Shown here: one piece after another, positions 6,064 to 34,002 of the stretch | How the letters are laid out: every line of letters starts with the position of its first letter | Position numbering within the stretch: position 1 is the stretch's first letter | From: an uncultured bacterium | GTDB lineage: Bacteria > Verrucomicrobiota > Kiritimatiellia > CAIKKV01 > CAIYGI01 | Assembly: GCA_903925685.1 (NCBI GenBank) | Contig: CAIYGI010000072.1 | Coordinates: 1-34,002, forward strand | DNA length: 34,002 nt | Reading direction: 5' to 3' | Notes under the pieces: model-generated | Database searches by the model: none | What the model saw: the letters and a program-made list of their open reading frames with translations, nothing else | Told to the model about the DNA's origin: nothing | Translations under genes and position numbers: made by a program

Positions 6064-9000
6064 GTGCGTAAGAATGCTACAATTCCGATGCAAGATTGGG
6101 CGAACATGAGTTCTCAATATTTAGAAAGTCACCGCGCTGGCGGCTGGCGGGGGTGGAATAGGCCCTTTTGGGCGGCGTTTTGCCTCGCGCTGATCTGGCC
6201 CATGGCGGGACGGGCCGTTTCCGTCGAGTGGCTGGGCGGAACCAACCTGGACGGGCGGGTGGCCGTGCGCTGGATGACGTCCGATGAACCTATCGAACTT
6301 GCCTTTCGCGTCGAACGTCAGGATGCCGATACCGGACGCTTTACGGCGGTGCTGCCCGAGCCGCTGCCAGCCCGCGGTTCGGCGCGCGGCGCGATCTATA
6401 CGCTGATCGATCCCAATGCGCCCGTGGGCGTTCCGGCAACCTATCGCCTGGCGGCCCTGCTGGACGATACGAACACGATCGCCTTCGGCCCCTATCCCGT
6501 ATTGGTTCCAGTTGACAAACTCCGCCTGCAGTCGAAACTCGCCGATACCGATCCATCGACCCTTTTCAGCGCCACCGACCTGCCGCTGACGGATTTCGAA
6601 CTGCAGCGCAACCAGGAACGGCAGGCCGAATTGTTGACGGTCCAGGCCATGCTGGCGGCGTCGGCTCCTGGCGCGCGCAAGAAAATGGCCACCGTCGGCG
6701 TGGCTACGCTCGCGGGTGGCGCGACCCCGCTGGCCGGCGCGGGCGCGGTGCAACGCCTGAAGATCGGGGTCATGACCACCGGCGTGTACCGGCTCTCGGC
6801 CGCCTATCTGGCCGCCGCCTTCAACCTTGCCGAGAGCGATCTGCAGACAGCCATCCGGGCGACAAAAGTGGCGCTCAGTTGCCAGGGACACGATGTGGCC
6901 TGGGCGGCCGACACCAATGCCAGCGCCGTGCTTTTTTACGGCATCCCCGCCGTTTCCCGCTACACAACCGAGAACATCTACTGGCTTAGCCTCACCAATG
7001 GCTTCAACCTGCTGCCGCGTCCAACCGCGCCGGCCGCGCAGGCCGACACCAACCAGTCCTTTTTGACGACGCTGCATTTCGAGAGCAGCAACCACTTTTC
7101 GTATGCCCAAGGCCGTTCATTGGATGGACCCCTTGTGGTGAGCGGGACTTTGCCCCAATCCTCCACGGTTTCGCTAACATTCAACCTGATTGAGGCGGTG
7201 TATACCAACGCAACAATTACGGTCATTCCCACGCTGATTTCGCGCATGACCGAAGCCTCGCCCGATACGCATAATGTGGGCGTGCTGGTCAACAGGTCCA
7301 GCGTCACTAATGTCGCTTGGAACGGCGAGGCGCTCATGAATCCGGTCGCGCAGTTCTCCCAGTCGATACTTTCCAATGGCGTCAACACGCTCCTTTTGAC
7401 CAACGCCACCCGAACATCGGCGGGGTACGTGCTTTATGCGGGTTTCGACGTAACCTACTGGCGGACTTATCGCGCCAGCGGAGACGCGCTGGGTTTCGTC
7501 CCGTCGGGCAACACCACGGTGACAATCTGGGGTTTCACAAACGGTCCGCCAACGATCTGGGATGTGACGGATCCGTACGCGCCGTCTTGGATTGAGGGCG
7601 CGTCGAACTGCTTCACCAACGGTGCCTGGCAAGCAACCTTTACGCCAGGGGCGCCAACCAACCGTTTCTTCGCCTTCTCGTCCGCCGGTTATCTCGCGCC
7701 GTCACGCCTCAAAGCCGAAGGCGCGGCGACAGACCTGTGCGCCGCGACAAATGGCGCCGACTGGGTGATGGTGATCCCGCCCTTGTACCGGCTGGTAAAT
7801 TTCCGTAACCAGGCGGAGCGCCTGGCGGCCTGGCGCTCCGCGCAGGGCTTGTGTACCATGGTGCTGGACTACGAAGACCTTTGCGATGCCTTCCGTTACG
7901 GGCTCGACACTCCCTTTGCGATTCGCGATTTTGTGGGCGCATCCGCCCGGTGGATTACTCCACCACGTTTCCTCGTGCTGGGCGGGCATGGCGACTACGA
8001 CTACCTGTGGAACATTACGAACCAGTGCCTGCTACCGCCCTACATGGTGCCGTCCACGGACGTGCCTTACAGTGAAGGGGCGGGGTTCTTCAGCGCCGAT
8101 TCGGGACTGGTGGACGCCAATGGAGACGGCATGCCGGATCTGGCGGTAGGACGCATTCCAGCGGTATCGAGCAACGAATTCGCGCGTTTCGTGGATAAAG
8201 TCATCACGTACGAGTCGCCGGCGGACAAGAAAATGCGCATCGAAGTCATCGCCGATGACCCGAATTCCAGCAGCGGTAAGTATGCTTTCGATACGGGTTG
8301 CGACAGCATGTCCGCCTGTATTCCGACCAATACTTACACCGTTTTCAAGGACTATGCTTATTCCGGAAACTTTTTGACACTCAGGTCTGCCGTTACAAAC
8401 CACTTGTGGAACGGCGTGGGGTTGATGAGTTTCTTTGGTCACGCAACCACTTGGAGCATTGCCGCTGGAAGCGGAGAACTCCTTAACAGCCAATATGATT
8501 TTCGGTGGCCATTCCCAACTATTGGGGTGGGGTTGGCCTGCTCTCTGAACAGATACGAATATCCGGGGGCTGTCATTGGAAGTAACCCATTGCCTTCGTT
8601 TGGCGAAGTGGGTGTCGCGTCGACCAATGCGTTCTCCGCCTTCTTTGCCTGTTCCGGTCCCGCGGATGTCGCCGGGGATCGAGCGATCGGCGAGGAATTC
8701 TACAAGTCCATGTTCGTGAACAAGGCGGCGCGGCTGGGCGAGGCCACGCAGACGGCGATACGCGGATACTGGTCGCAACTGATGAGGTTTCAATACATGG
8801 TGGAGATGTACACCCTGCTGGGCGATCCGGGAATGGTGATTGACCAGAAACGGCTGACGGTGTCCAGCGCCGCGGGGCAGGCGTGGCCACCCGTCGGGAG
8901 CGACTGGATCGGGGACTTCACCAATCTCGCCTGCGCGGTCACGAACGGCGTGCTGACCCAGGGGACCACGCAATTGGTCTGCACGGGCTGGAGCGGCGCC

Positions 9001-12000
9001 GGCAGCGCGCCGACCTCGGGCACGACCACCAATACCGGTGTCTTTTTCGTGACGCAGGACGCGACCGTACACTGGCTCTGGAAAACCCAGTACCTGGTGA
9101 CGGCCGGCGCAGACTCCAATGGCGCCGTGTGGGGTTCCACCGGTTGGGTGGACCGCGCCGCCACCGCGCGCCTTACCGCCGTGCCGGCCGACGGATACCG
9201 CTTCCTGGGCTGGATAGGCGCTGTCGACTCCACGAACAATCCGCTCAATCTCGTTGTAACCGACGCCGTCGCGGTGGCCGCCACGTTCACAAACAATGCG
9301 CCGGATTCCTGGACCATCACCGCGTTCGCCGGTGCGCATGGCACGGTGAATCCCGCCGGCGGTATCCAGGTTGACAGCAATGGCGCCAGCTTCGCGATTA
9401 CGCCCGACGCATATTATCACGTCGCCGATTTGACGGTGGATGGTGTGTCTGTTGGCGCTGCGACGAATTACGCTTTCACCGCGGTCGACAGCAATCATAC
9501 ACTGGCGGCTGCTTTTGCGGCGGACACGCGGACGCTGGACGTCGTTGCGGATCGCGGCCAGGGCGACCCCTCCACGGGCAACCATGCGGTGGACTATGGC
9601 GCCGGACTCGCCGCGCGGGTGACCAATAGCGTGGTCTACGAGGGCGTCAACGCCACGCAATACGTGTGCGCCGGATGGGCCAGGACGGGCAGCGCGCCGG
9701 CGTCCGGCACAAACGCCAGCACTGAACTTTTCACGATTACGAACGACACAACCGTTGCCTGGTTCTGGCGGACCAATGTTTTCCTGAACGTCGCCGCCGG
9801 CAACGGCGGCAGCGTGGATGCGGCCAGCGGCTGGCGCGCGCTGGGCGCCGCCGTGACCATTACGGCCACGGCCGCCGCGCATTATGATTTCGACCATTGG
9901 GAAGGAGACACGAACGCCACCGTGTCGTTGTCCAGCAATCGCGCGACGTTTGTCATGGATCGCGCGCGCGGACCGCTGACCGCCGTTTTTTCGCCGCGGC
10001 ATTATACGTTGACCATCGGCGCACAGCCATACGGCACGCCCGACCCCGCGGCGGGCGTCACCACCAACGATTTAAATGCCGTGCTACGCTGCGGCATCTC
10101 CGGATCGCCGGTCGAACTCAGCCCGCAGACCACGCAATTCGTCTGCCTGGGCTGGACGGGAACCGGCAGTGCGCCGGCATCGGGCCCTTACACCTCCACG
10201 GTATTTCGGATGACCGCCGATTCGACGCTCGATTGGTTCTGGGCGACCAATCTGTGGCTGAGCGTGATCACCAACGGTCCTGGTATGGTGGATGTGGCAT
10301 CCGGTTGGCAGGCATTGGGGAGCAACGTGACGTTGACGGCGACTGCCGGCGCGCACTGGCATTTCTTCGAGTGGACGGGCGACATCGAAGGCGGAGGCTC
10401 GACGGGCGCGGCGCTGACCGTGCCGATGAACCATCCGCGCGCGGTGACGGCGAACTTTGCCTGGGACCAGTATACGCTGACCGTGGCGTCGCCCTGTGGC
10501 CAGACCGAACCGGCGCCGGGAGTGTACACGAACGATTACGGAACGCAGGTATCGGCCGGAGTGACCAATACGCCGTACGAAATAGCGGCGCTGGCGACGC
10601 AGTTGGTTAGTGTGGGCTGGAGCGGCACGGGCAGCGCGCCGGCCTCTGGGACGGAAACGAACACCGGATTCTTTGCGCTCACCAACGCTGCGACGGTGGA
10701 TTGGCTGTGGCATACGAATCTCTATCTGGCGGCCTCGGTGTCGGGCTTCGGCACATTGGACGTAGCCTCCGGCTGGCAGCCGCGCGGAACGACAGTGGTG
10801 GTGCGCGTGACCCCCGACTACAAGAACCATCTTGTCGGCTGGAGCGGCGGCACGAACGGCTGCGTGATGGGTTCGAACTCGATTGCCGTGCCAATGACCG
10901 CGGCGCGTCAGATCGAAGCCCTTGTGGAAACCAACAGCCAACAGAAACTGACGGTGGTATCGGACGTGGGCCAAACCGAGCCTCTGCCCGGACAGTACGA
11001 ATACGATTTCGGCGCGGAAGTGGCCAGCGGTGTGACGAATGCGATTCTGTACGCGGGGCTGGATGCCACTCAGTATGTGAGCATGGGATGGACCGGCACC
11101 GGCAGCGCGCCGGCGTCTGGCGTTGGAACGAACACCGGGAACTTTAATCTGACATTACCCTCGGTGGTGACCTGGCTCTGGCGGACCAATTATCACCTGG
11201 GCGTAACGGTTACGGGCGGCGGAACGACGGACGTCGGCATGGCGTGGGTAGAAGCTGGGACGACCGCCACCGTACACGCCGTGGCAGACCCGCACCGGCA
11301 CTTTGCCTTCTGGAGCGGCGATCTCGATGGCGCCTCGATGACGGGCGCCGTCATCAGCGTGGTCATGGACCGGCCGCGCGCAGTGACGGCGGTCTTTACC
11401 AGCAACGAGTGGTACACGTTCACGGTTGCCTCGGCCCACGGCGCGGGCGATCCGGCGCCGGGCGCGACGTCGCACGAGTGGGGCACGAGCCTGTCGGCCG
11501 GATTAACGAACGCGACGGTCTACGACGGCGTGCTGGCGACGCAGTATGTCAGCCTGGGCTGGACCGGTACCGGCAGCGCGCCGGCATCGGGAAGCAGCAC
11601 GAACACCGGTTCGTTTGCGATTACCAACGACACGACGCTCACATGGCTTTGGAAAACCAATTATTATCTTGATCTGAGCGTGGAAGGCAACGGCGGAATT
11701 AACCAAACCTCGCACTGGTGCATGCTCGGCTCCAACGTGGTTGTGCTTGCCAGCAACGATCTGCAACATGTATTCCTCGACTGGGGCGGGGATACCAACG
11801 GTTGCGGGATTACCAACAACAGCCTGACGGCGGCTATGAATCAGTTCCGCCGCATCGTGGCGCGTTTCGATGCCGTGACGGCGGAGGCTTATATCCCCGG
11901 GGCAAATGCGGTCACGTCGTCCGTGCCGATGTACCAGAACAACATCAACCTTTACCCGATACCAGGCCATCGGGACCCGGGCTTTGGAATCTGTTTCGCG

Positions 12001-13794
12001 ACCTACGTGGCCGACGTGCTGGGTTATTGGGACCGGACCACGTATACGAACAATGGCATCCAGTACTGGAACCTCGTGGATCACGGAGTGGCGCCGTTGC
12101 GCCAGCCGGTAGGCGCCGGACAGGAAGACGCCGACGTTTACGGGCTGATCCTGCCTGTCGGGACGATGTATTACACGACCAACATGCCGTCGGACGGTGG
12201 GTGGGACGATGTCGTAATCCGGCAGCAGTGCAACACCAATCTCGGTCTGGCGTTCGGTTCGACCTTGTATCCGGGTCAGATAAAGGCCTCGACTCCCGAC
12301 CAGTTTGTAACTTTGTACACGCAGATCGTGGTCGAGGTTGACGCAGGCCATCCCGTGGGAGCCGGCTTCTATGGCAGCACATATTTCGGCAGCGCCCACC
12401 AGGTGCCGGTGCTGGGTTACGTGCGTATGTCGAATATGGTTGACAGCCTGCTGTACATCCATCGTAATCAATCCCCTGCGCGCTCGGAATACATCAACTA
12501 TTTCGCCGCGTCCAGCGGCACGGAACGCGACATGGCGACGATCATTCCCGGGGGTGTTCCGGTGGACGGATATCACCGCGCCGGAATCGGAACGAACGCC
12601 GCGACGGCGGCTGCGCTAAATCCCGACGATCCATACGGATTCCGGCAGACGCATTGCTTTACCTCCACCGCTGACGCGGTCTGGATCGCCCTGACCAACC
12701 TGGCGGGCCGCCAATACACGGTGGACATCTGCCACCGCGGCACCAATGCCGACACGCTGCTGACGCTGCTGGCCGGGGATAGACAAACGGTGGTGGCGCA
12801 GGGAAGCACGCAACTGACGTGGCGCTGTTGGACGACGGGCGCCAACTACCTGGTTGTCACGCCCGGCTCCGGAGTGGCCAATGGGGCGTGGGCCTGGGCG
12901 AACTTCGATGTCGAGGTGGATTATACGAACGTTAATCCGTGGCTGGTGGTCGCGAGTCCGGTCGGCGGAACCTGGCCGACGGTTGGAACGAACGCCGGCT
13001 TCACCAACGGGGCGGTCATCTCGGCGAGCGTGACCAATAGTCCGTTCACGGTCGGCGGCGGAACCCAATACGTTTGCGCGGGCTGGACGCGGGACGGCAG
13101 TGCGCCGGGGTCGGGAACAGGCGCCAGCACAGGTCCTTTTACGCTCACCAACGATACAATCCTGGCCTGGCAGTGGACGACGAACCTGTTTTTGTTGGTG
13201 CAGACCACCAATGGCCCGGGCATCACCGATCCGACCAACGGCTGGTTCCAGTCCGGGACCAATACGCCGGTGACGGCGCAACCGGGGGACTACTATCACT
13301 TCGCAGGATGGTCGGGCGATACCAACGGGATAGTGTCGGTGGTCAGCAACCTGGTGAACGTGCCTATGACTGTTCCGCGCGTGCTGACAGCCTCATTCCA
13401 GCCCAACCTGGCGACCAACCAGACTCCCGAGTGGTGGCTGGCGGCGCATGGACTGACCAATGGAGGATTCAATGCCGGCGCCATGGACGATGCGGATGGC
13501 GACGGGATGCCGAATTGGGCGGAGTACCGGGCAGGCACGGATCCTACGAACCGGTTTTCGCTGCTGATGTTTGACAGCGTCGCTCCGGAAGCCAACAGCA
13601 CCTGGATCGTGATGCGGTGGCAAAGCGCGGGCGGCAAATCCTACCGTCTCGAACGCGGAACCAATCTGACGGACCAGGCGCCGTTCAGCACCCTTTTGCG
13701 GACAAACATCACCGCTACCGCGCCCATGAATGTTGAGACCGACAAGACAGCGGTTGGAGAAGGCCCATGGTTCTATCGGATTGAACTGGAGTAG
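6064..13794 (+). CDS. Giant secreted protein with C25 (gingipain-type) and C39-like cysteine peptidase domains and InlB-like repeats
   Basis: A 2576-residue exported protein. The GTG at 6064 gives the longest form; ATGs at 6088 and 6106 also precede the hydrophobic signal segment (WAAFCLALIWPMAGRA) and no Shine-Dalgarno site decides between them. Residues about 215-330 resemble the N-terminal region of C25 peptidases (GVYRLSAAYL, QGHDVAW). The catalytic region, about 565-930, has FFGHATTW with His793 and GLACSLNRYEYPG with Cys826. The 33-residue spacing equals that of His211 and Cys244 in gingipain RgpB. Repeats of about 155 residues follow. A C39-like papain-fold domain (about 1943-2140) has Cys1977 in GICFATYVADVLGYWD, His2112 in GSAHQVPVLGY and possibly Asn2135. 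A pre-peptidase C-terminal (PPC)-like domain (about 2188-2270), one more repeat, a calcium motif DDADGDGMPNWAEY and a terminal beta domain end the protein. No anchor or sorting signal is obvious. It probably degrades or processes extracellular protein. Confidence 0.85.
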   Translation: MRKNATIPMQDWANMSSQYLESHRAGGWRGWNRPFWAAFCLALIWPMAGRAVSVEWLGGTNLDGRVAVRWMTSDEPIELAFRVERQDADTGRFTAVLPEPLPARGSARGAIYTLIDPNAPVGVPATYRLAALLDDTNTIAFGPYPVLVPVDKLRLQSKLADTDPSTLFSATDLPLTDFELQRNQERQAELLTVQAMLAASAPGARKKMATVGVATLAGGATPLAGAGAVQRLKIGVMTTGVYRLSAAYLAAAFNLAESDLQTAIRATKVALSCQGHDVAWAADTNASAVLFYGIPAVSRYTTENIYWLSLTNGFNLLPRPTAPAAQADTNQSFLTTLHFESSNHFSYAQGRSLDGPLVVSGTLPQSSTVSLTFNLIEAVYTNATITVIPTLISRMTEASPDTHNVGVLVNRSSVTNVAWNGEALMNPVAQFSQSILSNGVNTLLLTNATRTSAGYVLYAGFDVTYWRTYRASGDALGFVPSGNTTVTIWGFTNGPPTIWDVTDPYAPSWIEGASNCFTNGAWQATFTPGAPTNRFFAFSSAGYLAPSRLKAEGAATDLCAATNGADWVMVIPPLYRLVNFRNQAERLAAWRSAQGLCTMVLDYEDLCDAFRYGLDTPFAIRDFVGASARWITPPRFLVLGGHGDYDYLWNITNQCLLPPYMVPSTDVPYSEGAGFFSADSGLVDANGDGMPDLAVGRIPAVSSNEFARFVDKVITYESPADKKMRIEVIADDPNSSSGKYAFDTGCDSMSACIPTNTYTVFKDYAYSGNFLTLRSAVTNHLWNGVGLMSFFGHATTWSIAAGSGELLNSQYDFRWPFPTIGVGLACSLNRYEYPGAVIGSNPLPSFGEVGVASTNAFSAFFACSGPADVAGDRAIGEEFYKSMFVNKAARLGEATQTAIRGYWSQLMRFQYMVEMYTLLGDPGMVIDQKRLTVSSAAGQAWPPVGSDWIGDFTNLACAVTNGVLTQGTTQLVCTGWSGAGSAPTSGTTTNTGVFFVTQDATVHWLWKTQYLVTAGADSNGAVWGSTGWVDRAATARLTAVPADGYRFLGWIGAVDSTNNPLNLVVTDAVAVAATFTNNAPDSWTITAFAGAHGTVNPAGGIQVDSNGASFAITPDAYYHVADLTVDGVSVGAATNYAFTAVDSNHTLAAAFAADTRTLDVVADRGQGDPSTGNHAVDYGAGLAARVTNSVVYEGVNATQYVCAGWARTGSAPASGTNASTELFTITNDTTVAWFWRTNVFLNVAAGNGGSVDAASGWRALGAAVTITATAAAHYDFDHWEGDTNATVSLSSNRATFVMDRARGPLTAVFSPRHYTLTIGAQPYGTPDPAAGVTTNDLNAVLRCGISGSPVELSPQTTQFVCLGWTGTGSAPASGPYTSTVFRMTADSTLDWFWATNLWLSVITNGPGMVDVASGWQALGSNVTLTATAGAHWHFFEWTGDIEGGGSTGAALTVPMNHPRAVTANFAWDQYTLTVASPCGQTEPAPGVYTNDYGTQVSAGVTNTPYEIAALATQLVSVGWSGTGSAPASGTETNTGFFALTNAATVDWLWHTNLYLAASVSGFGTLDVASGWQPRGTTVVVRVTPDYKNHLVGWSGGTNGCVMGSNSIAVPMTAARQIEALVETNSQQKLTVVSDVGQTEPLPGQYEYDFGAEVASGVTNAILYAGLDATQYVSMGWTGTGSAPASGVGTNTGNFNLTLPSVVTWLWRTNYHLGVTVTGGGTTDVGMAWVEAGTTATVHAVADPHRHFAFWSGDLDGASMTGAVISVVMDRPRAVTAVFTSNEWYTFTVASAHGAGDPAPGATSHEWGTSLSAGLTNATVYDGVLATQYVSLGWTGTGSAPASGSSTNTGSFAITNDTTLTWLWKTNYYLDLSVEGNGGINQTSHWCMLGSNVVVLASNDLQHVFLDWGGDTNGCGITNNSLTAAMNQFRRIVARFDAVTAEAYIPGANAVTSSVPMYQNNINLYPIPGHRDPGFGICFATYVADVLGYWDRTTYTNNGIQYWNLVDHGVAPLRQPVGAGQEDADVYGLILPVGTMYYTTNMPSDGGWDDVVIRQQCNTNLGLAFGSTLYPGQIKASTPDQFVTLYTQIVVEVDAGHPVGAGFYGSTYFGSAHQVPVLGYVRMSNMVDSLLYIHRNQSPARSEYINYFAASSGTERDMATIIPGGVPVDGYHRAGIGTNAATAAALNPDDPYGFRQTHCFTSTADAVWIALTNLAGRQYTVDICHRGTNADTLLTLLAGDRQTVVAQGSTQLTWRCWTTGANYLVVTPGSGVANGAWAWANFDVEVDYTNVNPWLVVASPVGGTWPTVGTNAGFTNGAVISASVTNSPFTVGGGTQYVCAGWTRDGSAPGSGTGASTGPFTLTNDTILAWQWTTNLFLLVQTTNGPGITDPTNGWFQSGTNTPVTAQPGDYYHFAGWSGDTNGIVSVVSNLVNVPMTVPRVLTASFQPNLATNQTPEWWLAAHGLTNGGFNAGAMDDADGDGMPNWAEYRAGTDPTNRFSLLMFDSVAPEANSTWIVMRWQSAGGKSYRLERGTNLTDQAPFSTLLRTNITATAPMNVETDKTAVGEGPWFYRIELE
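8851..13407 (+). repeat. Seven InlB-like protein repeats, about 465-477 bp each
   Basis: Within the giant protease, copies begin near 8851, 9532, 10000, 10470, 10945, 11413 and 12937. The last is separated from the others by the C39-like and PPC-like domains. Each copy carries a core of the form GW-x-x-x-GSAPxSG, then a TNxxxLxVxxxGxG strand, a SGW segment and a closing VPM-like strand before the next copy. A short extra unit lies at about 9301-9530. The DNA core GGCAGCGCGCCGGC or a close variant recurs at about 9001, 9688, 10165, 10630, 11101, 11572 and 13096, so spacing in the central block is 465-477 bp. Such bacterial beta repeats usually act as stalks or adhesive segments. Confidence 0.8.
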
Positions 13795-13825
13795 TGAGTA
13801 GTGAGTGGTGAGTGGTGTGTGGTAA
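13791..13825 (+). repeat. Heptanucleotide tandem repeat overlapping the protease stop codon
   Basis: Five 7-bp units run in succession: GTAGTGA, GTAGTGA, GTGGTGA, GTGGTGT, GTGGTAA. The TAG stop of the giant protease (13792-13794) lies in the first unit. TGA recurs at 13795, 13802 and 13809, so all three forward frames are closed within 17 nt. The tract lies in the 69-nt spacer before the pqqD-like gene. Confidence 0.8.
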
Positions 13826-13863: not shown

Positions 13864-14160
13864 ATGACAGTGGCCATCAATGAAACATACCGGCGCATGC
13901 CGCAGGTAGTGGCTCGCGAAGTGGCGGGTGAACGGCTATTGATACCGATTCACGGCAAGCTGGCGGACATGCGGCAGGTCTTTACGCTCAATGCCGTGGC
14001 GGCCCGCATCTGGGAGTGGATGGACGGCGGTAAAACGCTGGCGCAGATCGCCGCGGCGGTCGAGGAGGAATTCGAGGTGGAGCAGGGGCAGGCACAGGCC
14101 GATGTTTGCGAACTGGCCGGTGATTTATTGAAGGCGGCGTTGATCGAACCGGTGGTCTGA
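13864..14160 (+). CDS. PqqD-like RiPP recognition element protein
   Basis: A 98-residue protein of the PqqD family, which folds as a winged-helix RiPP recognition element that binds precursor leader peptides and presents them to radical SAM enzymes. Visible features are the N-terminal strand region (RMPQVVAREVAGERLLIPIHGKLAD), the family-typical LNAVAARIWEWMDGGKTLAQIAAAV, and a C-terminal helix with VCELAGDLLKAALIEPV. The length is normal for a stand-alone PqqD. The start at 13864 is set by a strong Shine-Dalgarno site. The stop is immediately followed by the ATG of the radical SAM gene, so the two are translationally coupled. PQQ synthesis itself is unlikely because no pqqA-, pqqB- or pqqC-like gene is near. 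I infer that it binds the leader of the small peptide encoded at 15247-15390. Confidence 0.88.
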   Translation: MTVAINETYRRMPQVVAREVAGERLLIPIHGKLADMRQVFTLNAVAARIWEWMDGGKTLAQIAAAVEEEFEVEQGQAQADVCELAGDLLKAALIEPVV

Positions 14161-15228
14161 ATGCAGTGCGCGGATCCAGAGCAGATGCAAGCCGGAGGAT
14201 TTTTTCCCCGGCTCGTTCGCAAGGCCGAGGCCGCCGGGGTGCCGATTTCCGGTACCTTCGACCTGACCTGGCGCTGCTGCTTTCGCTGTCTGCACTGCTA
14301 TGCCGGCCCGGCGCGCGACCGGCGCGGCGAATTGACCACGGCTGAAGCCCTGGATTTGCTGGACCAGATGGCGGCGGCAGGCTGCCTCGATCTGCTTTTC
14401 AGCGGCGGCGACCCGTTGCTGAGGCGGGATTTCGAGCGTATCTACCGCCATGCCCGCGAATGCGGGATGTTCCTCAAGGTGTTCACCAACGCCGCCCTCG
14501 TCAGCGAACGCATTGCCGACCTGTTTGCCGATTATGCGCCGGACTACGTTGAAGTATCGCTCTACGCGGCCACCGACGCCACGGCGGCCATTGTCACCGG
14601 CGACCCGCAGGGGCTGCGCCGCACACTGCGCGGCATAGACCGGCTGCGGCGGCGCGGCGTGCGGGTGCGTCTGAAATCGGTGTTGATGGCCACGAATGCC
14701 GCCGAATTTCCCGCCATCGAGGCGCTGGCCACATCGCTGGGTCTGCCCTTCAGGATGGACGTGGCGATTCTGCCGCGGCTGAACGGCGACATGGCCCCGC
14801 TGGCCCTGCGGGTGCCGGCGGAAGAAGCGGTGCGCATCGAATTCTCGGATCCCGAACGACGGCAAAAATGGGCGCGATATCTGGAGCAACTGCGTAAAAT
14901 GCCGCCCACCAACGCGCGCTTTGTCTGCAAGGCCGGCCGCACCGATTTTCATCTGGATCCCTACGGAATACTGCGTCCCTGCGTGATGTTCCCGGGTGGC
15001 GGATCCAACGCGCGCGTCCTGTCGTTTTCGGAGGCCTGGCGGCAGGTTTCGACGCTGGTTAAAAAAGCTACAATTGCAGTTGACGTTTCATGCCGGTCGT
15101 GTAACAATAATGCCTTGTCAGGTTCATGTAGTGCAGTTGCAGAGCTTGAAACCGGATTTGCGGATCGGTGTTCGGGTTATTTGTGTGACCTGGGCAGGGA
15201 GAGGGCTGATTTAGTGGGTAGTCAATGA
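14161..15228 (+). CDS. Radical SAM peptide-maturing enzyme with SPASM domain
   Basis: A 355-residue radical SAM protein. The catalytic cluster motif CxxxCxxC is Cys39-Cys43-Cys46 (WRCCFRCLHCYAG), in a segment DLTWRC typical of PqqE-like enzymes. LLFSGGDPLLRRDF supplies the SAM-contacting GGDP. The C-terminus has seven cysteines that fit a SPASM domain binding auxiliary iron-sulfur clusters: Cys256-x12-Gly-x4-Cys274 matches the classical first half, then Cys311-x2-Cys314, Cys323, Cys337 and Cys342, with wider spacing than the textbook CX2CX5CX3C. The enzyme should use a 5'-deoxyadenosyl radical to modify a peptide side chain or backbone. It begins at the base after the pqqD-like stop and ends 18 nt before the small peptide gene. 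By eye its last 180 nt are richer in A and T than the rest. The modification chemistry (thioether, C-C crosslink, epimerisation or other) cannot be read from the sequence. Confidence 0.92.
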   Translation: MQCADPEQMQAGGFFPRLVRKAEAAGVPISGTFDLTWRCCFRCLHCYAGPARDRRGELTTAEALDLLDQMAAAGCLDLLFSGGDPLLRRDFERIYRHARECGMFLKVFTNAALVSERIADLFADYAPDYVEVSLYAATDATAAIVTGDPQGLRRTLRGIDRLRRRGVRVRLKSVLMATNAAEFPAIEALATSLGLPFRMDVAILPRLNGDMAPLALRVPAEEAVRIEFSDPERRQKWARYLEQLRKMPPTNARFVCKAGRTDFHLDPYGILRPCVMFPGGGSNARVLSFSEAWRQVSTLVKKATIAVDVSCRSCNNNALSGSCSAVAELETGFADRCSGYLCDLGRERADLVGSQ

Positions 15229-15234
15229 TAATTT

Positions 15235-15240
15235 GGAGGT
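15235..15240 (+). promoter_or_regulatory. Strong Shine-Dalgarno site for the precursor-like peptide
   Basis: GGAGGT lies 6 nt before the ATG at 15247. It is one of the best ribosome binding sites in the window and is the main reason to accept this short reading frame as a gene. Confidence 0.8.
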
Positions 15241-15246
15241 GGGTGT

Positions 15247-15390
15247 ATGAAGAAGACACAGAAAGCCAAGTACGAAAAGCCCCAAGTTAAGGCCGTGGAA
15301 CTCGCCACGGAGGAAGTCCTGAGCAGCGGTTGCCGTGAGATAGATAGGTGCGACGTCAACGGTAGCTTTAAGGGCGCAGACGGCTCTTAA
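15247..15390 (+). CDS. Candidate RiPP precursor peptide, 47 residues
   Basis: This small gene encodes a lysine-rich N-terminal half (MKKTQKAKYEKPQV) and a C-terminal half with two cysteines. Tyr9-x2-Pro12-x-Val14 matches the YxxPxL-type leader motif that lasso peptide recognition proteins bind. Residues 15-25 form an acidic, probably helical stretch (KAVELATEEVL). The likely core begins near Ser26: SSGCREIDRCDVNG and then SFKGADGS, with Cys29 and Cys35 spaced CX5C and a C-terminal Ser47. There is no Gly-Gly cleavage site, no PqqA-type Glu-x3-Tyr and no MftA-type Val-Tyr end. It lies just after the pqqD-like and radical SAM genes and is followed by two hairpins and an HprK-like kinase gene. 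I infer that it is the substrate of both enzymes; the mature product is unknown. It is too short to appear in many automatic annotations. Confidence 0.8.
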   Translation: MKKTQKAKYEKPQVKAVELATEEVLSSGCREIDRCDVNGSFKGADGS

Positions 15391-15444: not shown

Positions 15445-15452
15445 AGTTTGCG

Positions 15453-15489
15453 AACCGTTTGCGAAGAAAATTCGCAAACGGTTTTCTTT
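15453..15489 (+). terminator. Strong hairpin (13-bp stem) between peptide and kinase genes
   Basis: AACCGTTTGCGAA at 15453-15465 pairs perfectly with TTCGCAAACGGTT at 15471-15483 across a GAAAA loop, and TTCTTT follows. This is the most stable-looking hairpin noticed in the window. It probably ends or attenuates the pqqD-radical SAM-peptide transcript, so that the kinase and downstream genes are made at a lower level. An in-frame TTG at 15442 would place this hairpin inside the kinase gene, which argues for the later GTG start. Confidence 0.65.
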
Positions 15490-15513: not shown

Positions 15514-16422
15514 GTGTCAGCACAGCGATTCTGGATCGGTGGTTTGGCTTACACTTACGAGGGGGATTTCGATCTCGATGTGACGATGTGGCCGTCATTC
15601 TATCGGGGCTTCGATCAGCCGCAACCCCTTCCGGACGGTGATCAACTGGTATGGCGTGTGCATTTGGCCGGCTGTGGCGCATCCAGACCGGCGGGGACGC
15701 CAGAGTTGGAATCGGAATCCTGGAGCCTGTGGCGGCAAGGAATGGTGCGTACCATTGCATTCGACGCTGCGCCGCATGCTCCTCCGCGCTGGACGGCGGC
15801 GATGGATCTGCGGGCGGGACGCGCGGAAGTGCGCTGGGATTCGCGTATGGAATACGCCCGGAGTAGCGGCGCGCTGGTCGAAAATCTGCTGGCGTTTAAC
15901 CTTGACCGTTTCTTGACGTTGTACCGTCTGGCCGAATCGGGCAGCGGGATGCTTGTGCATGGCGCCGCGACCGATTTCAGCGGGCAGGGGTGGCTTTTCA
16001 TGGGGCGTTCGGGTCATGGCAAGAGCACTTTATCCAATCTGCTCCATCAAACCCAAACAGCACTTGTGTTGAGCGACGAAAGGGCCGTCGTACGCAAATT
16101 GAAGAACGGTTTCTGGCTTTGCGGTACACCCTGGCCCAGCAGCGCCGGGTTTGCAAAAGCCGCCGTGTGCCCGCTGCGCGGGCTGGTGTTTCTGGAACAT
16201 GGGACCCAGAACGAGCTGATCCCGCTGAAGCCGCCGGAGGCCCTGAGGCGACTGCTCGTTGTGTCGTCATGTCCATGGCACGATAAGGATATCTTCGATC
16301 CGCTCGTAACGCTGGGCGGTGAATTGGCTCAAACATTGCCGGCCTGGGAATTGCGCTTCCTGCCCAACGCGAGCGTGACGGAGTTTTTGCGCGAACGGCT
16401 GGCGGGCAAACGATCGGGGTGA
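15514..16422 (+). CDS. HPr kinase-like protein (HprK-related kinase) of the RiPP locus
   Basis: A 302-residue protein from GTG 15514, chosen because AAGGGG lies 6 nt upstream and the earlier in-frame TTG at 15442 would read through the terminator hairpin. The C-terminal half has an HprK-type P-loop, GRSGHGKST (Gly164 to Lys170 and Ser171), preceded by the family-typical LVHGAATDF and followed by LVLSDERAVV, which resembles the HprK switch region. The N-terminal 140 residues are unrecognised. I do not see the C-terminal signature of true HPr kinase/phosphorylase, and no ptsH gene is nearby, so control of the sugar phosphotransferase system is unlikely. Related kinases occur with PqqD-like proteins and in some lasso peptide clusters, where the paeninodin kinase phosphorylates the C-terminal serine of the precursor. 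I infer that it phosphorylates the 47-residue peptide or its product. The hom gene starts 6 nt downstream. Confidence 0.78.
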   Translation: MSAQRFWIGGLAYTYEGDFDLDVTMWPSFYRGFDQPQPLPDGDQLVWRVHLAGCGASRPAGTPELESESWSLWRQGMVRTIAFDAAPHAPPRWTAAMDLRAGRAEVRWDSRMEYARSSGALVENLLAFNLDRFLTLYRLAESGSGMLVHGAATDFSGQGWLFMGRSGHGKSTLSNLLHQTQTALVLSDERAVVRKLKNGFWLCGTPWPSSAGFAKAAVCPLRGLVFLEHGTQNELIPLKPPEALRRLLVVSSCPWHDKDIFDPLVTLGGELAQTLPAWELRFLPNASVTEFLRERLAGKRSG

Positions 16423-28742: not shown

Positions 28743-28771
28743 TTGACAGGCAAGGAATGGCAACGTATCTT
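28743..28771 (+). promoter_or_regulatory. Candidate sigma-70 promoter for the second giant exoprotein
   Basis: TTGACA at 28743-28748, a 17-nt spacer and TATCTT at 28766-28771 form a good sigma-70-like pair. Transcription would start near 28778, about 57 nt before the ATG at 28836. AAAGG at 28825-28829 is a weak Shine-Dalgarno site. Confidence 0.5.
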
Positions 28772-28835
28772 AAAAGTTTGTTTTGTGAAAAGGCATTAAG
28801 AGATGGGCGGCGCTACATATACGCAAAGGCAGCGC

Positions 28836-31800
28836 ATGAAGATCATGTATCACGATAAAGGTGTTTTGCTCCTGGCGTTTGCAATTGTTGTCTCTTGTTT
28901 GCCGCGGGCCGCCGCGCGAGCCCGTGCGCTTCTCGACACGATACAAGACAACGAAAACACGAATTTGACGCTGACATTGCCAGGCTCTGGCTACGAAGGT
29001 CAGTCGTTCACCAACGGTGGGCAGGTGACAATTGGTGGGGCGTTGACGAACGATCTGGCGGTAATACTGGAGTCGGTGTACCCTGCGCAATCGCCGGCAA
29101 GTGACACGGTGAGCATTTTGGCTGGACAAACAGCGGTTTGTTTCACCGTCGCTTTGCCGGTGGGAATGCCACCCGGGGTGCAGACTGGGATCGTGACGGC
29201 GAGTGCGGTTGGGTTTACACCGGCGAGCGCATCGATTCTGGTGCAAGACGCCGACCTGGGCCATTTTGTGTTCGGAGATATAGCCAGTCCCCAGACCTCT
29301 GCCGTACCGTTCAACGTGGGGCTTGCGGCAACCGACGTGAACGGAGCGACAATTACCGTATACCAAGGTTCCGCGGGATTCAGCGGCACGGGCGATAGCG
29401 GGGCGATGACCGTTCATCCAACGAGTCTCGTCAACTTCGTCAATGGCATTTGGATTGGGAACGTAACGGTGACGGGTCTTGATAGCAACGTGCGCTTGAC
29501 CGTGAGCGATGGAGCGGGCTATTCCATGACGAGCACGCCGTTCGATGTAGTCGCCGGACCGTTGCATCATTTTGCCTGGGGTTCTGTGGCAAGCCAACAG
29601 TACGTGAACCTACCGATCCCGGTTACGATTACGGCTCAGGATGCCGGGAACAACACCGCTGTGGATTTTGCAGGTACTGTCATGCTTTGTGGCGCAACAG
29701 TGCCTGCAACCAATCGGTTAATGCAGCCCAATTTGTCGGGGAACATATACAGCACCGTAGGCTTTCCAACACACGGAATTCAGTTCCGGCCTGCGAATAA
29801 TATAACCGTGACGCACGTTCGGCATTATTGGGGCACCAATATTTCTGTTTGGACTGATAGCGGGGTCCTTGTCGCCAGCAAGAATGTAGCGAGCGTCAAT
29901 GGTACTTGGCGGGAGACACCGCTCGATGCCCCGGTGGTGCTAAGTTCCGGCACCGTATACCGCGTTGCGGGCGCTGGCACTCCCTACTACTATCGCTCGC
30001 CCGGCGGCATGCCAACGAACTTCACCGACGGGATCATTCTCAATGGTGTGTACGCTAATGGTGGCGGAACTTTTCCAAACTTTACGAACACTATTAGATA
30101 CTTGGTTGATTTGCGTTACACCCCCCGTGGTTCGGTCACCATCACGCCGACGAACTCCGGCAACTTTGCATCTGGCGTCTGGACAGGTTCCGTAACCATT
30201 TTGCAACAAGCCACGAATATGTACCTGCAGGCAGTTGACGGCACAGGACATACTGGTGCAAGTGCGACGTTTCGTGCCTCTAGCACGAACATGGTGGTGG
30301 CGTTACCGCCCTCTGGTTATGAAGGGGCCTCTTGCTTAACGGGGGGCGTGGTTTCGATCGACATGACGCTGGCCTATGATCTGCTCGTTAGGCTCGATTC
30401 GTCGGATACCAACGAAGTGGTGGTGCCGGACATGGTCACAATTCCGGCGGGGAAGACGGTCGCGTGTTTTTACATTGTTCTGCCGCCGGACTACGCCATG
30501 GTCGGCGTGAAGACGGGAATCGTGACGGCGAGCGCGGCGGGATTCGGGTCGGGCAGCGCGTCGATACTCGTGCGTGATGCCGACTTGCACCATATCGAAT
30601 TTCAACCGGTTACGGGCGGACAGACAGCCGGAGTGCCGTTCGATGTCGGGTTGTCTGCTGTAGACGTGAACGGGGAGACGATTGCCGTCTATTCCGGCAA
30701 AGCGCATTTGTGCGGCATCGCCGATGGCAGTCCCGTGATGGTGCAGCCCGATTACACGGGCTCTTTCAGCGCTGGACAGTGGACTGGAAGTGTGGCGGTT
30801 TATGGCGCGGCCACTAATGTACGGTTGACTGCCGTGGCCGAAAACGGGCGCGCCGGAACCAGCGTGGTCTTTAATGTGGAGGCCGGTCCGGTTCACCATT
30901 TCACCTGGAGTCCGATCGCGTCTCCCCAGTTCGTCGGCACGCCGTTTGCCGTCGTGGCGACGGCACGGGACATCGGCGAGAATACCGCCATTGGTTTCAC
31001 TGGCACAGTTGAGGTCGGGGCCTGGAGCGACGTGGAGACGCCGTCGGCGCGCTTGCAGACTACGCCGGGCAACTCGGCGGCATTCTCCGCGGGGACATGG
31101 ACGGGCACGGTGTCCGTCTGCGATCCGGCTACGCGGGTGACTCTGCGTGCGGACGACGGATTGGGGCATCTGGGTACCAGTGCCGTCTTTGCCTTACAGT
31201 CAGCGGCTTTCCGGAGCGCCTATGCAATGAACGGGCTCTCGGTTCAGGGCGACATTGCGACGAATTTGTGGCTGACGGGCGACTACATGTGGTTCGGCGT
31301 GGCCGAGTGCGCCGGGTTGCTGACGAACGCGGCCATTACGTATCGCGCTGTTGACGCAGCGGCGCCATACGCAACGACTGTCTGGGGCGATGCCGCACAG
31401 ACACGCACGTTGTTCCGGGTGGAAGGCGCCGCCTCGACCAACGGCGCGGGAATCGTGCTTGGCGGTACTAACGGCGGACCGTTTTTCTTCACTTTCTGCG
31501 AAACCAATCGGGCTTACAGCGTCGACAAGGGCATTTACCAAAGTTTCGACGCTTGGCCGGCAGGAGCTTCCAACTACGGAGGCTGGACCAGTTGCGTCGC
31601 TCTCGGCATGGCCGACTTGGATCGTACCTACCGTGTACGCAGTGCCGTGCTGCCGACGAACGCTTGGCTGGCGACGCCGCGTCTCGCGAATGGTATTGGC
31701 CAGGTCCGTTTCTGGTTCCGGGACTATCCGCTCAACGGCGCGCCGCCAGCTGAGTGCCGTCTGGAGAAGTCGACGGATGGAACGAACTGGACCACTCTGA

Positions 31801-34002
31801 CAAACCTGACCGTTGGCACCACCATGTATGCGGCCTTGACGCTGACCGTTGAGGACCGCGACAGCCGCTATTTCCGGTGGTTCAACGCCACCACAAATAG
31901 CGCTTTGTGCATTGACGATCTCGTGGTGACAGAGCCCTTCTGGCCCGCGGTTGCCTTTGGTCCGGCGACCCATCTTCCGGCGGCGCCGACTGCCTTGGAA
32001 CCCGTCATGGTTTCCGTGCGCATTGATCCGGTGGCAGGCGCATCTAATCTTGCGGCGACACTCTTCTACCGTATTGGTACGGATGGAGAATACACGCCGC
32101 TCGCCATGGCCAACAACGGACCGGTGTTCTCGAACCGGGTGGCGATCCCGGCTGGCATCGGACCAGAAGGCGGTGCCGGAATCGTGCAGTACATGATTCG
32201 TTGCGATTATCAGGGGTTTAACAGTTTGTACACGAAGCCGCTATACGCACCAGCGGACATCAACTGCCCGTTTGCCTATACGATTACGCGGTCATATATG
32301 GTGCTGACTAACTCGGCGGTGAGTCCGGCCTCGCCAAACACGACGAATGCAATGTCCTTCTCCGTCGAGGTCGTGCCTTTTGCGGCGGCGTCAAACGTTA
32401 CGGTTACGGCCTACTACAGTGTCGGGCGTCCGGCTGGCCCATACCTACCCCTGGCGATGAGCACCGTGGGCACGAACCGCTATGCGACCGTGAGTTTGAT
32501 CCCGCCGGTTACGGAACCCGGTACGTACGTCTATTACTACTTCACGGCGTCATGCGACGGCTCCAGTCCGATCCCCGCCAACTATCCCGCGGGCGGTGCG
32601 AGTGCACCGCTGGCTGTTCAAATTCATGCCTCCCCGTTCACCTCGGCCTACACGAATCTTGTCGTAAGCGGAAGCGGGTTGAACCCCAACATGATTCTGG
32701 TCGGCAATGGCGTCTGGCAGGGCGTGGCGTTAGTCGCCAATTTGGTCGATGCGGGGTTCGTATTCAACGGGCAGGGTGCTGACGCCGCCAATTTCGGGGC
32801 GGCTGTCCAGACAACGATTTCGCCGTTCTATGGAACCGCGGTGAACGGCGGGGAAAATATCGTACTTGCCGGCACGAACAACGGCTGTCTGGTTTTCAAC
32901 TTCGACGAGAACTGCCATACATGGAACGTGCTCCGGGCGGCCTACGTTAACTTCGACATATGGACTAATGGCACGGGCGGCTTTGGCGTTTATACGAACG
33001 GCGAAGGGTGGGTACTGTCGGATGGCCGTGTCACCAGCAACGCGCTGCCAGACAGCGGGTGCGCATTTGTCGGACGCTCGGCCATTCTCAATGCTGGGCC
33101 CGGAACGAATCAATGCCTGCGGTCGCCGGATCAGTCCAACGGTATCGGCCAGATTAGTTTCTGGTACCGCAATGCGCAGAGCAACGGCCAGCCACCGGCC
33201 GGATTCACTGTGGAAGTCGCCCCGGCGACAACTGGCCTTTGGTCTGTTATCGCTTCTGTCACGAACGTGATTTCCGGCGAGTACGCGTACTTTTCGACAA
33301 CGCGCGGCGATCATAACACCAGGTGTGTGAGAATCCGCAATTTGACCGCCAGCGGACATCCGGCTCTCTGTCTGGACGAGGTCGTTGTCGCGGAGGTTGG
33401 GTCGGAATTGGGTTTCCGCGACGTGACCAACACTCCGGCCGCGCCGACATTCCTCGACAGCGTCGCGATCTCCTGTTCCATCGACTCACTGGCCGGCGCT
33501 ACCGGTATAGACGCGCGGGTGCATTATCGAGACAACCAGGATTCCGCTTTCGGCGTAGTGGCGATGACGAACGACTTTGGCGATCATTACACCACGGTTA
33601 CCCCTCTATTGCCAACGGCGCCCGGCAATACCGTACAGTATTACATAACGGCCACTTATCACGGGTTCCAGGGCGATGCCGTTGCCCAGTATCCGTCGCC
33701 AGGTCAACCCCTGCTAGCTTACCAGGTTGGCGATTTGACGAATGATATCAACCGAGTGCAGGGTTTCGAGACGTATCCGTCGGCCAAGCCAGCCGTAATC
33801 AATACGGGCACGAAGAATTATTCCGATGGATGGTCCTTCCACAATCTTGGCATATACGGTACGGTTCCACAGGAACCCAACATTGTCTTCAACGGGACAA
33901 ACTCCGCACAGTTGAATAAACTCTCGATTGGCGATTCATGGATACAAAGTCCGGTGATTAGCAACGGTGTTGGATCGCTTATGTTCTATGCGCGCAGTGC
34001 GC
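28836..34002 (+). CDS. Second giant exported modular protein (3' end beyond the window)
   Basis: The frame is open from ATG 28836 to the window end, giving 1722 residues without a stop. An N-terminal signal peptide is clear (KGVLLLAFAIVVSCLPRAAARA). Two related beta-sandwich blocks follow, at residues about 44-480 and 486-785, sharing GYEG, GIVTASAxGF, SASILVxDADL, VPFxVGL and HHFxW motifs. The first block contains an insertion resembling DUF4082 (about 304-430, with GTWRETPLDAPVVLSSGTVY). From about residue 789 a different module recurs, at 31200-31940, 32637-33402 and again from 33750, with SNGIGQISFWYRN-like and ALCIDDLVV-like motifs suggesting jelly-roll domains. Between them lie Ig-like linkers with VQYxI and YYYFTA strands. 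No catalytic site is recognised. It may be an adhesin, a polymer-binding protein or the front part of a larger enzyme. A promoter candidate lies 65-93 nt upstream. Confidence 0.85.
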   Translation, partial: MKIMYHDKGVLLLAFAIVVSCLPRAAARARALLDTIQDNENTNLTLTLPGSGYEGQSFTNGGQVTIGGALTNDLAVILESVYPAQSPASDTVSILAGQTAVCFTVALPVGMPPGVQTGIVTASAVGFTPASASILVQDADLGHFVFGDIASPQTSAVPFNVGLAATDVNGATITVYQGSAGFSGTGDSGAMTVHPTSLVNFVNGIWIGNVTVTGLDSNVRLTVSDGAGYSMTSTPFDVVAGPLHHFAWGSVASQQYVNLPIPVTITAQDAGNNTAVDFAGTVMLCGATVPATNRLMQPNLSGNIYSTVGFPTHGIQFRPANNITVTHVRHYWGTNISVWTDSGVLVASKNVASVNGTWRETPLDAPVVLSSGTVYRVAGAGTPYYYRSPGGMPTNFTDGIILNGVYANGGGTFPNFTNTIRYLVDLRYTPRGSVTITPTNSGNFASGVWTGSVTILQQATNMYLQAVDGTGHTGASATFRASSTNMVVALPPSGYEGASCLTGGVVSIDMTLAYDLLVRLDSSDTNEVVVPDMVTIPAGKTVACFYIVLPPDYAMVGVKTGIVTASAAGFGSGSASILVRDADLHHIEFQPVTGGQTAGVPFDVGLSAVDVNGETIAVYSGKAHLCGIADGSPVMVQPDYTGSFSAGQWTGSVAVYGAATNVRLTAVAENGRAGTSVVFNVEAGPVHHFTWSPIASPQFVGTPFAVVATARDIGENTAIGFTGTVEVGAWSDVETPSARLQTTPGNSAAFSAGTWTGTVSVCDPATRVTLRADDGLGHLGTSAVFALQSAAFRSAYAMNGLSVQGDIATNLWLTGDYMWFGVAECAGLLTNAAITYRAVDAAAPYATTVWGDAAQTRTLFRVEGAASTNGAGIVLGGTNGGPFFFTFCETNRAYSVDKGIYQSFDAWPAGASNYGGWTSCVALGMADLDRTYRVRSAVLPTNAWLATPRLANGIGQVRFWFRDYPLNGAPPAECRLEKSTDGTNWTTLTNLTVGTTMYAALTLTVEDRDSRYFRWFNATTNSALCIDDLVVTEPFWPAVAFGPATHLPAAPTALEPVMVSVRIDPVAGASNLAATLFYRIGTDGEYTPLAMANNGPVFSNRVAIPAGIGPEGGAGIVQYMIRCDYQGFNSLYTKPLYAPADINCPFAYTITRSYMVLTNSAVSPASPNTTNAMSFSVEVVPFAAASNVTVTAYYSVGRPAGPYLPLAMSTVGTNRYATVSLIPPVTEPGTYVYYYFTASCDGSSPIPANYPAGGASAPLAVQIHASPFTSAYTNLVVSGSGLNPNMILVGNGVWQGVALVANLVDAGFVFNGQGADAANFGAAVQTTISPFYGTAVNGGENIVLAGTNNGCLVFNFDENCHTWNVLRAAYVNFDIWTNGTGGFGVYTNGEGWVLSDGRVTSNALPDSGCAFVGRSAILNAGPGTNQCLRSPDQSNGIGQISFWYRNAQSNGQPPAGFTVEVAPATTGLWSVIASVTNVISGEYAYFSTTRGDHNTRCVRIRNLTASGHPALCLDEVVVAEVGSELGFRDVTNTPAAPTFLDSVAISCSIDSLAGATGIDARVHYRDNQDSAFGVVAMTNDFGDHYTTVTPLLPTAPGNTVQYYITATYHGFQGDAVAQYPSPGQPLLAYQVGDLTNDINRVQGFETYPSAKPAVINTGTKNYSDGWSFHNLGIYGTVPQEPNIVFNGTNSAQLNKLSIGDSWIQSPVISNGVGSLMFYARSA
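28965..31195 (+). repeat. Two-copy beta-sandwich block in the second giant exoprotein
   Basis: Copy A starts near 28965 (LTLTLPGSGYEG) and copy B near 30291 (MVVALPPSGYEG). Both run through ILAGQTAVCF/IPAGKTVACF, TGIVTASA, DADL and HHFAW/HHFTW motifs and end in a GTV strand followed by FASGVWTGSV or FSAGTWTGTV. Copy A is longer because a DUF4082-like segment (about 29745-30126) interrupts its last domain. Confidence 0.7.
31200..34002 (+). repeat. Recurring jelly-roll-like module in the second giant exoprotein
   Basis: Three occurrences are visible, the last cut by the window end: 31200-31940, 32637-33402 and 33750 onward. Shared landmarks are FxSAY at the start of the first two copies, an (A/S)NGxGxxxF(W/Y) strand in all three, and ALCxD(D/E)xVVxE at the end of the first two. 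Each appears to be followed by Ig-like linkers. Divergence is high, so these are protein-level repeats, not recent DNA duplications. Confidence 0.6.

Follow-up and report, generated by a model that had tools for sequence, protein, structure and literature searches.

A YxxP leader code common to several RiPP chemistries is already known from the accessible parts of two papers. The first (PMC12710340) puts FusE, McjB, PqqD and StsC, the last a sactipeptide RRE, in one W/Y/LxxP group, and the second (PMC13381572) adds the linear polyphosphorylated peptides (LPP) to the users of YxxP-type recognition. According to the latter, LppB uses D70 to bond the Tyr of the leader and N33 to hold the kink at Pro, and the complex is weakened when one of these residues is mutated; the structures solved for LppB and PbaB1 with their leaders show the residues right after the motif as an extension of the RRE beta sheet. 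In paeninodin-type systems the kinase adds phosphate to the Ser at the C-terminus of the precursor (PMC9266682, accessible part), and LppK phosphorylates the internal Ser3 and refuses Thr at its own site (PMC13381572, accessible part).

The locus described here lies in the window, by which we mean the whole analyzed stretch of 34,002 nucleotides from an uncultured bacterium of the Kiritimatiellia. It contains a small precursor with a conserved leader next to an RRE-fold protein and a modifying enzyme, together with a kinase gene and a large protease gene (Table 1). The reading that we prefer, and hold to be reasonably probable, is that of a RiPP cassette in which the RRE grips the leader, the radical SAM enzyme modifies a Cys-containing core, the HprK-like kinase phosphorylates Ser47 and the C25 protease is a candidate for maturation. 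The larger finding is that this cassette, with its predicted C-terminal phosphoserine, is widespread.

Table 1. Positions of the cassette features in the window.
Feature	Position	Strand	Remarks
C25 peptidase (gingipain/PorU-like)	6064..13794	+	2576 aa; PF01364, E 8.8e-47
PqqD-like discrete RRE	13864..14160	+	98 aa; PF05402, E 1.6e-16
Radical SAM enzyme	14161..15228	+	355 aa; PF04055, E 3.8e-21; CxxxCxxC, degenerate SPASM-like Cys tail
Precursor peptide	15247..15390	+	47 aa; stop codon included in the positions; encodes MKKTQKAKYEKPQVKAVELATEEVLSSGCREIDRCDVNGSFKGADGS
YEKPQV leader motif, Tyr9 to Val14	15271..15288	+	direct reading
Core region, conserved Cys29 to C-terminal Ser47	15331..15387	+	putative core boundary
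Hairpin, 14 pairs, loop of 5, then T-rich tract	15452..15484	+	between precursor and kinase
HprK-like kinase	15514..16422	+	302 aa from GTG; start picked by alignment with G013

Direct reading of the precursor gene locates its start codon ATG at 15247-15249, with GGAGG upstream at 15235-15239, and its stop codon at 15388-15390. The codons for Tyr9 (15271-15273), Pro12 (15280-15282) and Val14 (15286-15288) place Tyr9-Glu-Lys-Pro12-Gln-Val14 in the peptide, just as the sequence-only reading had claimed. That reading also called the acidic stretch behind the motif helix-like; in the LppB and PbaB1 complexes, the residues at this place belong to the extended beta sheet. The core harbors two cysteines, Cys29 and Cys35. 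Among the 17 genomes of the order, the sole one of the same genus (G013) encodes a peptide that is 91% identical over 43 aa, and over the first 42 codons the two genes differ by 11 synonymous and 4 non-synonymous changes (pN/pS ~0.13), indicating that the precursor is a gene and no chance ORF. The window precursor matches no family of NCBIfam or Pfam, and family scans of 17 other precursors gave stray weak matches only. No export signal is visible by eye in the precursor sequences.

The hairpin between precursor and kinase (-21.1 kcal/mol, z -5.39) has a counterpart at the same place in G013 (z -3.99). It is terminator- or attenuator-like and was not listed by a simple consensus terminator scan. 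A strong hairpin in both genomes suggests that the precursor is made in excess of the kinase. Directly downstream of the kinase follow genes for a homoserine dehydrogenase and an aspartate kinase, which look like housekeeping genes. Between the C25 gene and the kinase of the window no exporter gene was identified, a point against the RiPP cassette. Farther along, at 28770-33359, the window holds four minus-strand ORFs of 209-277 aa that match no Pfam family at E 0.001.

Searches with the window radical SAM protein reveal how far the cassette extends. At the level of the order, 7 of 17 genomes contain a relative at E 1e-40, and at that of the phylum 19 of 288 do so at E 1e-60, the window's own genome being counted in both. 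The GTDB contigs yielded at least 516 relatives, from which 80 loci were kept, and the titles among the matches listed name Kiritimatiellia, Verrucomicrobia, Nitrospirae, Aminicenantes, Omnitrophota, Aerophobetes and Desulfobacteraceae; the viral contigs searched yielded none. By profile searches, we defined a core set of 33 loci with a radical SAM profile score above 320 bits, after removal of the duplicates L032 (of L018), L033 (of L017) and L128 (of L025). Of the 80 loci, L028, L030, L031, L034-L043, L048 and L061 were viewed apart from this set, and L044-L047, L049-L060 and L062-L098, which have a radical SAM match without RRE or kinase, were left out.

The order RRE, radical SAM, precursor, kinase is found in 29 of the 33 core loci. 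The others comprise L131, which ends near a contig edge, L121 (G186), whose kinase sits on another contig, and L018 (G001) and L122 (G054), where precursor and kinase adjoin each other elsewhere in the genome, away from the radical SAM gene. This persistent pairing of precursor and kinase argues for the RiPP cassette. Beside the radical SAM genes of the divergent loci L036, L040, L041, L048 and L135 no clear precursor was seen.

To judge the motif in a motif-blind manner, we listed all ORFs of at least 35 aa in 29 gaps between radical SAM and kinase genes. The pattern Y..P.[VLIMFA] occurs in 27 of 40 same-strand ORFs and in 1 of 32 on the opposite strand. Three gaps lack a motif ORF because the precursor overlaps the 3' end of the radical SAM gene and begins inside it; once such precursors are counted, all 29 cassettes have a YxxP peptide. 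Adding a second precursor in L132 and the one of L121 gives a set of 31, falling into 25 clusters at 60% identity. Every member carries YxxPx[VIL], compared with a mean of 0.57 and a maximum of 4 of 31 for shuffled residues; since this collection was partly guided by the motif, the gap-ORF comparison is the fair one. In the Omnitrophota, 78 of 285 genomes have an RRE match, and in 60 RRE loci fetched as a subset of the matches [YW]xxP is present in 36 of 266 small ORFs on the RRE strand versus 8 of 293 on the opposite strand. Removal of repeats, of members of the first set and of one further peptide left 33 Omnitrophota peptides.

Beyond the motif, the precursors share features of the core. 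All 31 contain at least two cysteines, one of them 20-21 residues past the Tyr (one precursor has an extra Cys within the motif), and in 27 of 31 this conserved Cys is directly followed by Lys or Arg. All 33 core radical SAM proteins retain CxxxCxxC, and the radical SAM profile finds the sactisynthase SkfB as best match among solved structures (3e-28), followed by PqqE. The core cysteines and the kinship with SkfB together point to Cys-directed chemistry. The enzyme would alter the core at Cys29 and Cys35, a thioether or a related Cys-directed bond being the most likely product. Of the 33 proteins, 23 keep an intact SPASM-like CxxC-C-C tail. In the other 10, among them that of the window (14161-15228), the tail is broken, so that these ten may have a changed auxiliary cluster or none; for the window enzyme, this loss counts against the RiPP cassette. 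None of eight radical SAM proteins matched the Pfam SPASM domain, and the NCBIfam matches shown for the radical SAM protein all score below cut-off.

The opposite end of the peptide shows the most striking regularity. Ser is the last residue in 28 of the 31 precursors, Thr in two and Tyr in one, and it is preceded by Gly (27) or Pro (4). A C-terminal Ser or Thr thus occurs in 30 of 31 precursors versus 34 of 364 long background ORFs of the same loci (9%). The sequence-only reading missed this regularity; its interval, 15247-15330, comprises residues 1-28 and stops just before the conserved Cys29. Among the Omnitrophota motif peptides, Ser is the final residue in 17 of the 21 whose locus has a kinase, compared with 4 of 12 without one (5 of 12 when Thr is included) and with Ser or Thr at the end of 36 of 230 motif-less ORFs.

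The kinase itself fits this pattern. Its predicted model (pLDDT 90.2) matches the folds of HprK and PEPCK, and in a 12-row alignment H149, K170 and D188 are invariant; the neighbor of D188 is D or E (E189 in the window protein). These invariant residues fit the His-Lys-Asp-Asp set of lasso kinases. A phmmer search of the kinase against PDB sequences gave no matches, and the ScmC model is matched at E 2.6e-5, below its cut-off. The profile of the kinase matches its counterpart in a paeninodin cluster of Priestia (2.4e-12), a Paenibacillus relative that lacks annotation (1.2e-10) and the kinase of a lasso-like cluster in Thalassobaculum (1.3e-8). WKKPEL is present in the Priestia precursor, whose last residue is Ser. 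The Priestia cluster lies on a plasmid, and its gene at L260:3464-4399, which matches the HprK-like kinase profile and has a P-loop and SDD, is annotated as an 'aldolase', an annotation that looks wrong from its sequence. By analogy with paeninodin kinases, a strong precedent, the window kinase would phosphorylate the side chain of Ser47.

Several observations speak against C-terminal phosphorylation: the precursor of G013 ends in Tyr despite the presence of the kinase, two precursors end in Thr, the G254 genome (89% complete) has no detected kinase and yet its precursor ends in Gly-Ser, and there are the five Ser or Thr ends among kinase-less Omnitrophota loci. Formylglycine-forming radical SAM enzymes oxidize Ser. 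The C-terminal Gly-Ser might accordingly be the target of the radical SAM enzyme, for instance for Ser oxidation, with the kinase acting on another residue or on another protein. The Ser ends without a detected kinase, in G254 and in 4 of the 12 kinase-less motif peptides, would fit such an arrangement, as would the internal Ser3 used by the related kinase LppK. However, it would leave the conserved core cysteines without a role, the kinase adjoins or pairs with the precursor in nearly all cassettes, and paeninodin-type kinases act on exactly the C-terminal Ser (PMC9266682, accessible part). We therefore regard this alternative as unlikely and retain the RiPP cassette with a phosphorylated Ser47.

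Leader removal is the weakest step of the RiPP cassette. The C25 protease is the best candidate for this step, or else may be a partner of the exported product. The window protein comprises seven stretches of PF18998 InlB-like repeats and a TSP3-like C-terminal part, and judged by eye its sequence probably includes a signal sequence. A short run of GTGAGTAGTGAGTGG-like repeats lies between the C25 and RRE genes (13794-13825). Of the 30 core loci with enough upstream sequence, 15 have a same-strand C25 gene no more than 1.2 kb upstream. L012 (G013) was scored as a miss; its contig starts inside a protein, the C-terminal part of which matches the window C25. In whole-genome searches, 8 of 9 genomes contain one to four C25 matches (two in the window's genome) and the ninth none, and with so few copies per genome the adjacency to the cassette is unlikely to be chance.

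This association could also mean that the peptide serves the protease, as a regulator or partner, the modified peptide activating, inhibiting or riding on the exported enzyme. The rarity of C25 genes set against their frequent position next to the cassette is in line with such a role, as is the C25 gene lying ~5 kb from the precursor-kinase pair of G001. The adjacent gene is nevertheless missing in half of the judged loci, which weighs against the RiPP cassette as well; in addition, the precursors lack an export signal by eye, and the scores of C25 proteins with PorU models stay under the cut-off (122.1 bits for the window protein with the T9SS_sortase PorU model, NCBIfam cut-off 420). A service to the protease thus appears distinctly improbable. 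Taking the RiPP cassette further, we suggest, as a tentative proposal that may well prove wrong, a new widespread RiPP family of Kiritimatiellia/Verrucomicrobia, Omnitrophota and further little-cultured lineages that unites a lasso-type leader, a radical SAM enzyme for a Cys core, a C-terminal phosphoserine made by the kinase and an exported C25 partner that matures the peptide or is itself controlled by it.

The remaining component of the RiPP cassette is the reader of the leader. The sequence-only reading had placed a pqqD-like product at 13864-14160, as the Pfam match confirms, and had proposed that it reads the YxxP motif. The RRE profile finds the lasso protein TbiB1 best among PDB sequences (E 6.4e-10); PbaB1 and TfuB1 come next, and the matches to PqqD and LppB are weaker. 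For the AlphaFold2 model of the RRE (pLDDT 87.6), the six best Foldseek matches are TbiB1 and TfuB1 complexes with their leaders. The two LppB residues that contact the motif correspond to D80 (LppB D70) and N43 (LppB N33) of the window RRE, and among the core RREs the Asp is present in 33 of 33 and the Asn in 27 of 33. Co-occurrence with the motif, the B1-like fold and the N43/D80 pocket all support the proposal, so that binding of the leader via Tyr9 and Pro12 is a well-supported prediction from sequence and model. The RRE would grip the leader at these two residues in the manner of lasso B1 proteins and offer the core to the two enzymes.

In a wider set, all 50 Tyr leaders are accompanied by the RRE Asp, compared with 8 of 17 other leaders (Fisher p 5.7e-7, uncorrected for kinship). 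A tree of 67 RREs indicates that kinship accounts for part of this pairing; by eye, the Asp was lost in about three separate places, many forks of the tree being weak. Among the other leaders, the Asp is found with 8 of 12 WxxP leaders and with none of the five that have neither Tyr nor Trp at the site. As it also accompanies WxxP leaders, the Asp is no Tyr-specific mark. A strict rule drawn from three cases, with RRE Asp for Tyr leaders and Glu or Gln for Trp leaders, was rejected, being broken by these same eight WxxP leaders. Reading of the motif by the radical SAM enzyme itself, with some other task for the PqqD-like protein, is highly improbable: the enzyme co-occurs with the motif as strictly as the RRE does, but in its fold, pocket residues and best structural matches the RRE agrees with proteins that bind YxxP, and replacement of its Asp is confined to lineages with leaders lacking Tyr.

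Some loci depart from the common leader. In a single Omnitrophota genome (G299), loci L156-L161 and L034 encode at least 12 precursors with [YFW]xxMxI...KLNPEQAVLSCC-type leaders, most of them ending in Ser-Ser, and the one RRE found there has Glu replacing the Tyr-binding Asp. Loci L226, L235, L238 and L240 feature KFKPxIxxVKLNPEQAVL leaders with the aromatic residue one place off, and in their RREs Glu or Leu takes the place of the Asp. Locus L258 encodes several YxxP peptides with IKRIQAASVAEGEFVEGIGH-like tails; the locus has no kinase and the peptides have no C-terminal Ser. Perhaps these represent another RiPP family on the same leader code.

The sequence-only reading had further suggested that one leader code may be shared with a different modification chemistry. 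The cassette agrees with this idea, which is not new, being in print for lasso peptides, PQQ, LPP and a sactipeptide RRE. What the cassette contributes is an extension of the YxxP code to a combination of radical SAM enzyme and kinase across several little-cultured phyla. In the literature searched, with most subscription journals and preprints lying outside it, we found neither a cassette that combines a radical SAM enzyme with an HprK-like kinase and a lasso-type RRE nor a core that is both radical-modified and C-terminally phosphorylated. In the accessible part of PMC9902471, PqqD-like and radical SAM genes are reported as frequent in the clusters of genomes from anoxic basins and the cassette goes undescribed; the accessible parts of PMC11123730 and PMC4289311 contain nothing on it. 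The cassette also makes a sharp prediction, namely phosphorylation of the terminal residue itself. How an RRE distinguishes one leader from another can be studied with the near-constant pairing of leader Tyr and RRE Asp, for which natural variants are at hand on both sides: WxxP, FxPxI and xxMxI among the leaders, and E, Q, K or L among the RREs.

Several known systems come close to the cassette. SynChlorMet (Scm, NCBIfam) likewise brings together PqqD-like, HprK-like and radical SAM proteins, and among NCBIfam models the kinase matches ScmC best, although the scores are far below cut-off (in bits, score/cut-off: ScmC 23.7/125, ScmD 27.1/100, ScmE 67.6/400, ScmF 45/400) and Scm has two radical SAM genes where the cassette has one. 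With sactipeptides (SkfB, StsB/StsC), it shares cysteines in the core and a radical SAM enzyme whose nearest solved structure is SkfB, and StsC belongs to the W/Y/LxxP RRE group (PMC12710340, accessible part). In contrast to sactipeptides, the cassette possesses a kinase and a C-terminal Ser, its radical SAM enzyme is without the full SPASM auxiliary cluster domain, a sactipeptide criterion, and the scores are low (StsB 86.3/625 and SkfB 47/300 bits).

LPP systems resemble the cassette in their YxxP leader, discrete RRE with Asn and Asp, HprK-like kinase and lack of a lasso cyclase (PMC13381572, accessible part). Peculiar to LPP in that same part are a SpI-like peptidase, an NTP transferase, an MsbA-like transporter and Ser3 phosphorylation, and a Pfam scan of 15 window proteins found none of these three protein domains. 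A radical SAM enzyme, by which the cassette differs, is not named in the accessible part of the LPP paper (0 occurrences of the term).

The paeninodin-type lasso clusters (PadeK/ThcoK, PbaB1) differ from the cassette, which has a radical SAM enzyme in place of macrolactam cyclase and B2 peptidase, and a Cys-containing core. PF00733, the macrolactam cyclase, is absent among the 15 Pfam-scanned window proteins, and no match to the B2 transglutaminase-like leader peptidase PF13471 turned up when the whole genome, which is 96% complete, was searched at E 0.1. The leader type of lasso systems, a [Y/W]xxPx[hydrophobic] leader with a B1-type RRE, is present. As in the paeninodin-type clusters, a discrete PqqD-like RRE goes together with a [Y/W]xxPx[LV] leader, an HprK-like kinase with H-K-D-D residues and a C-terminal Ser.
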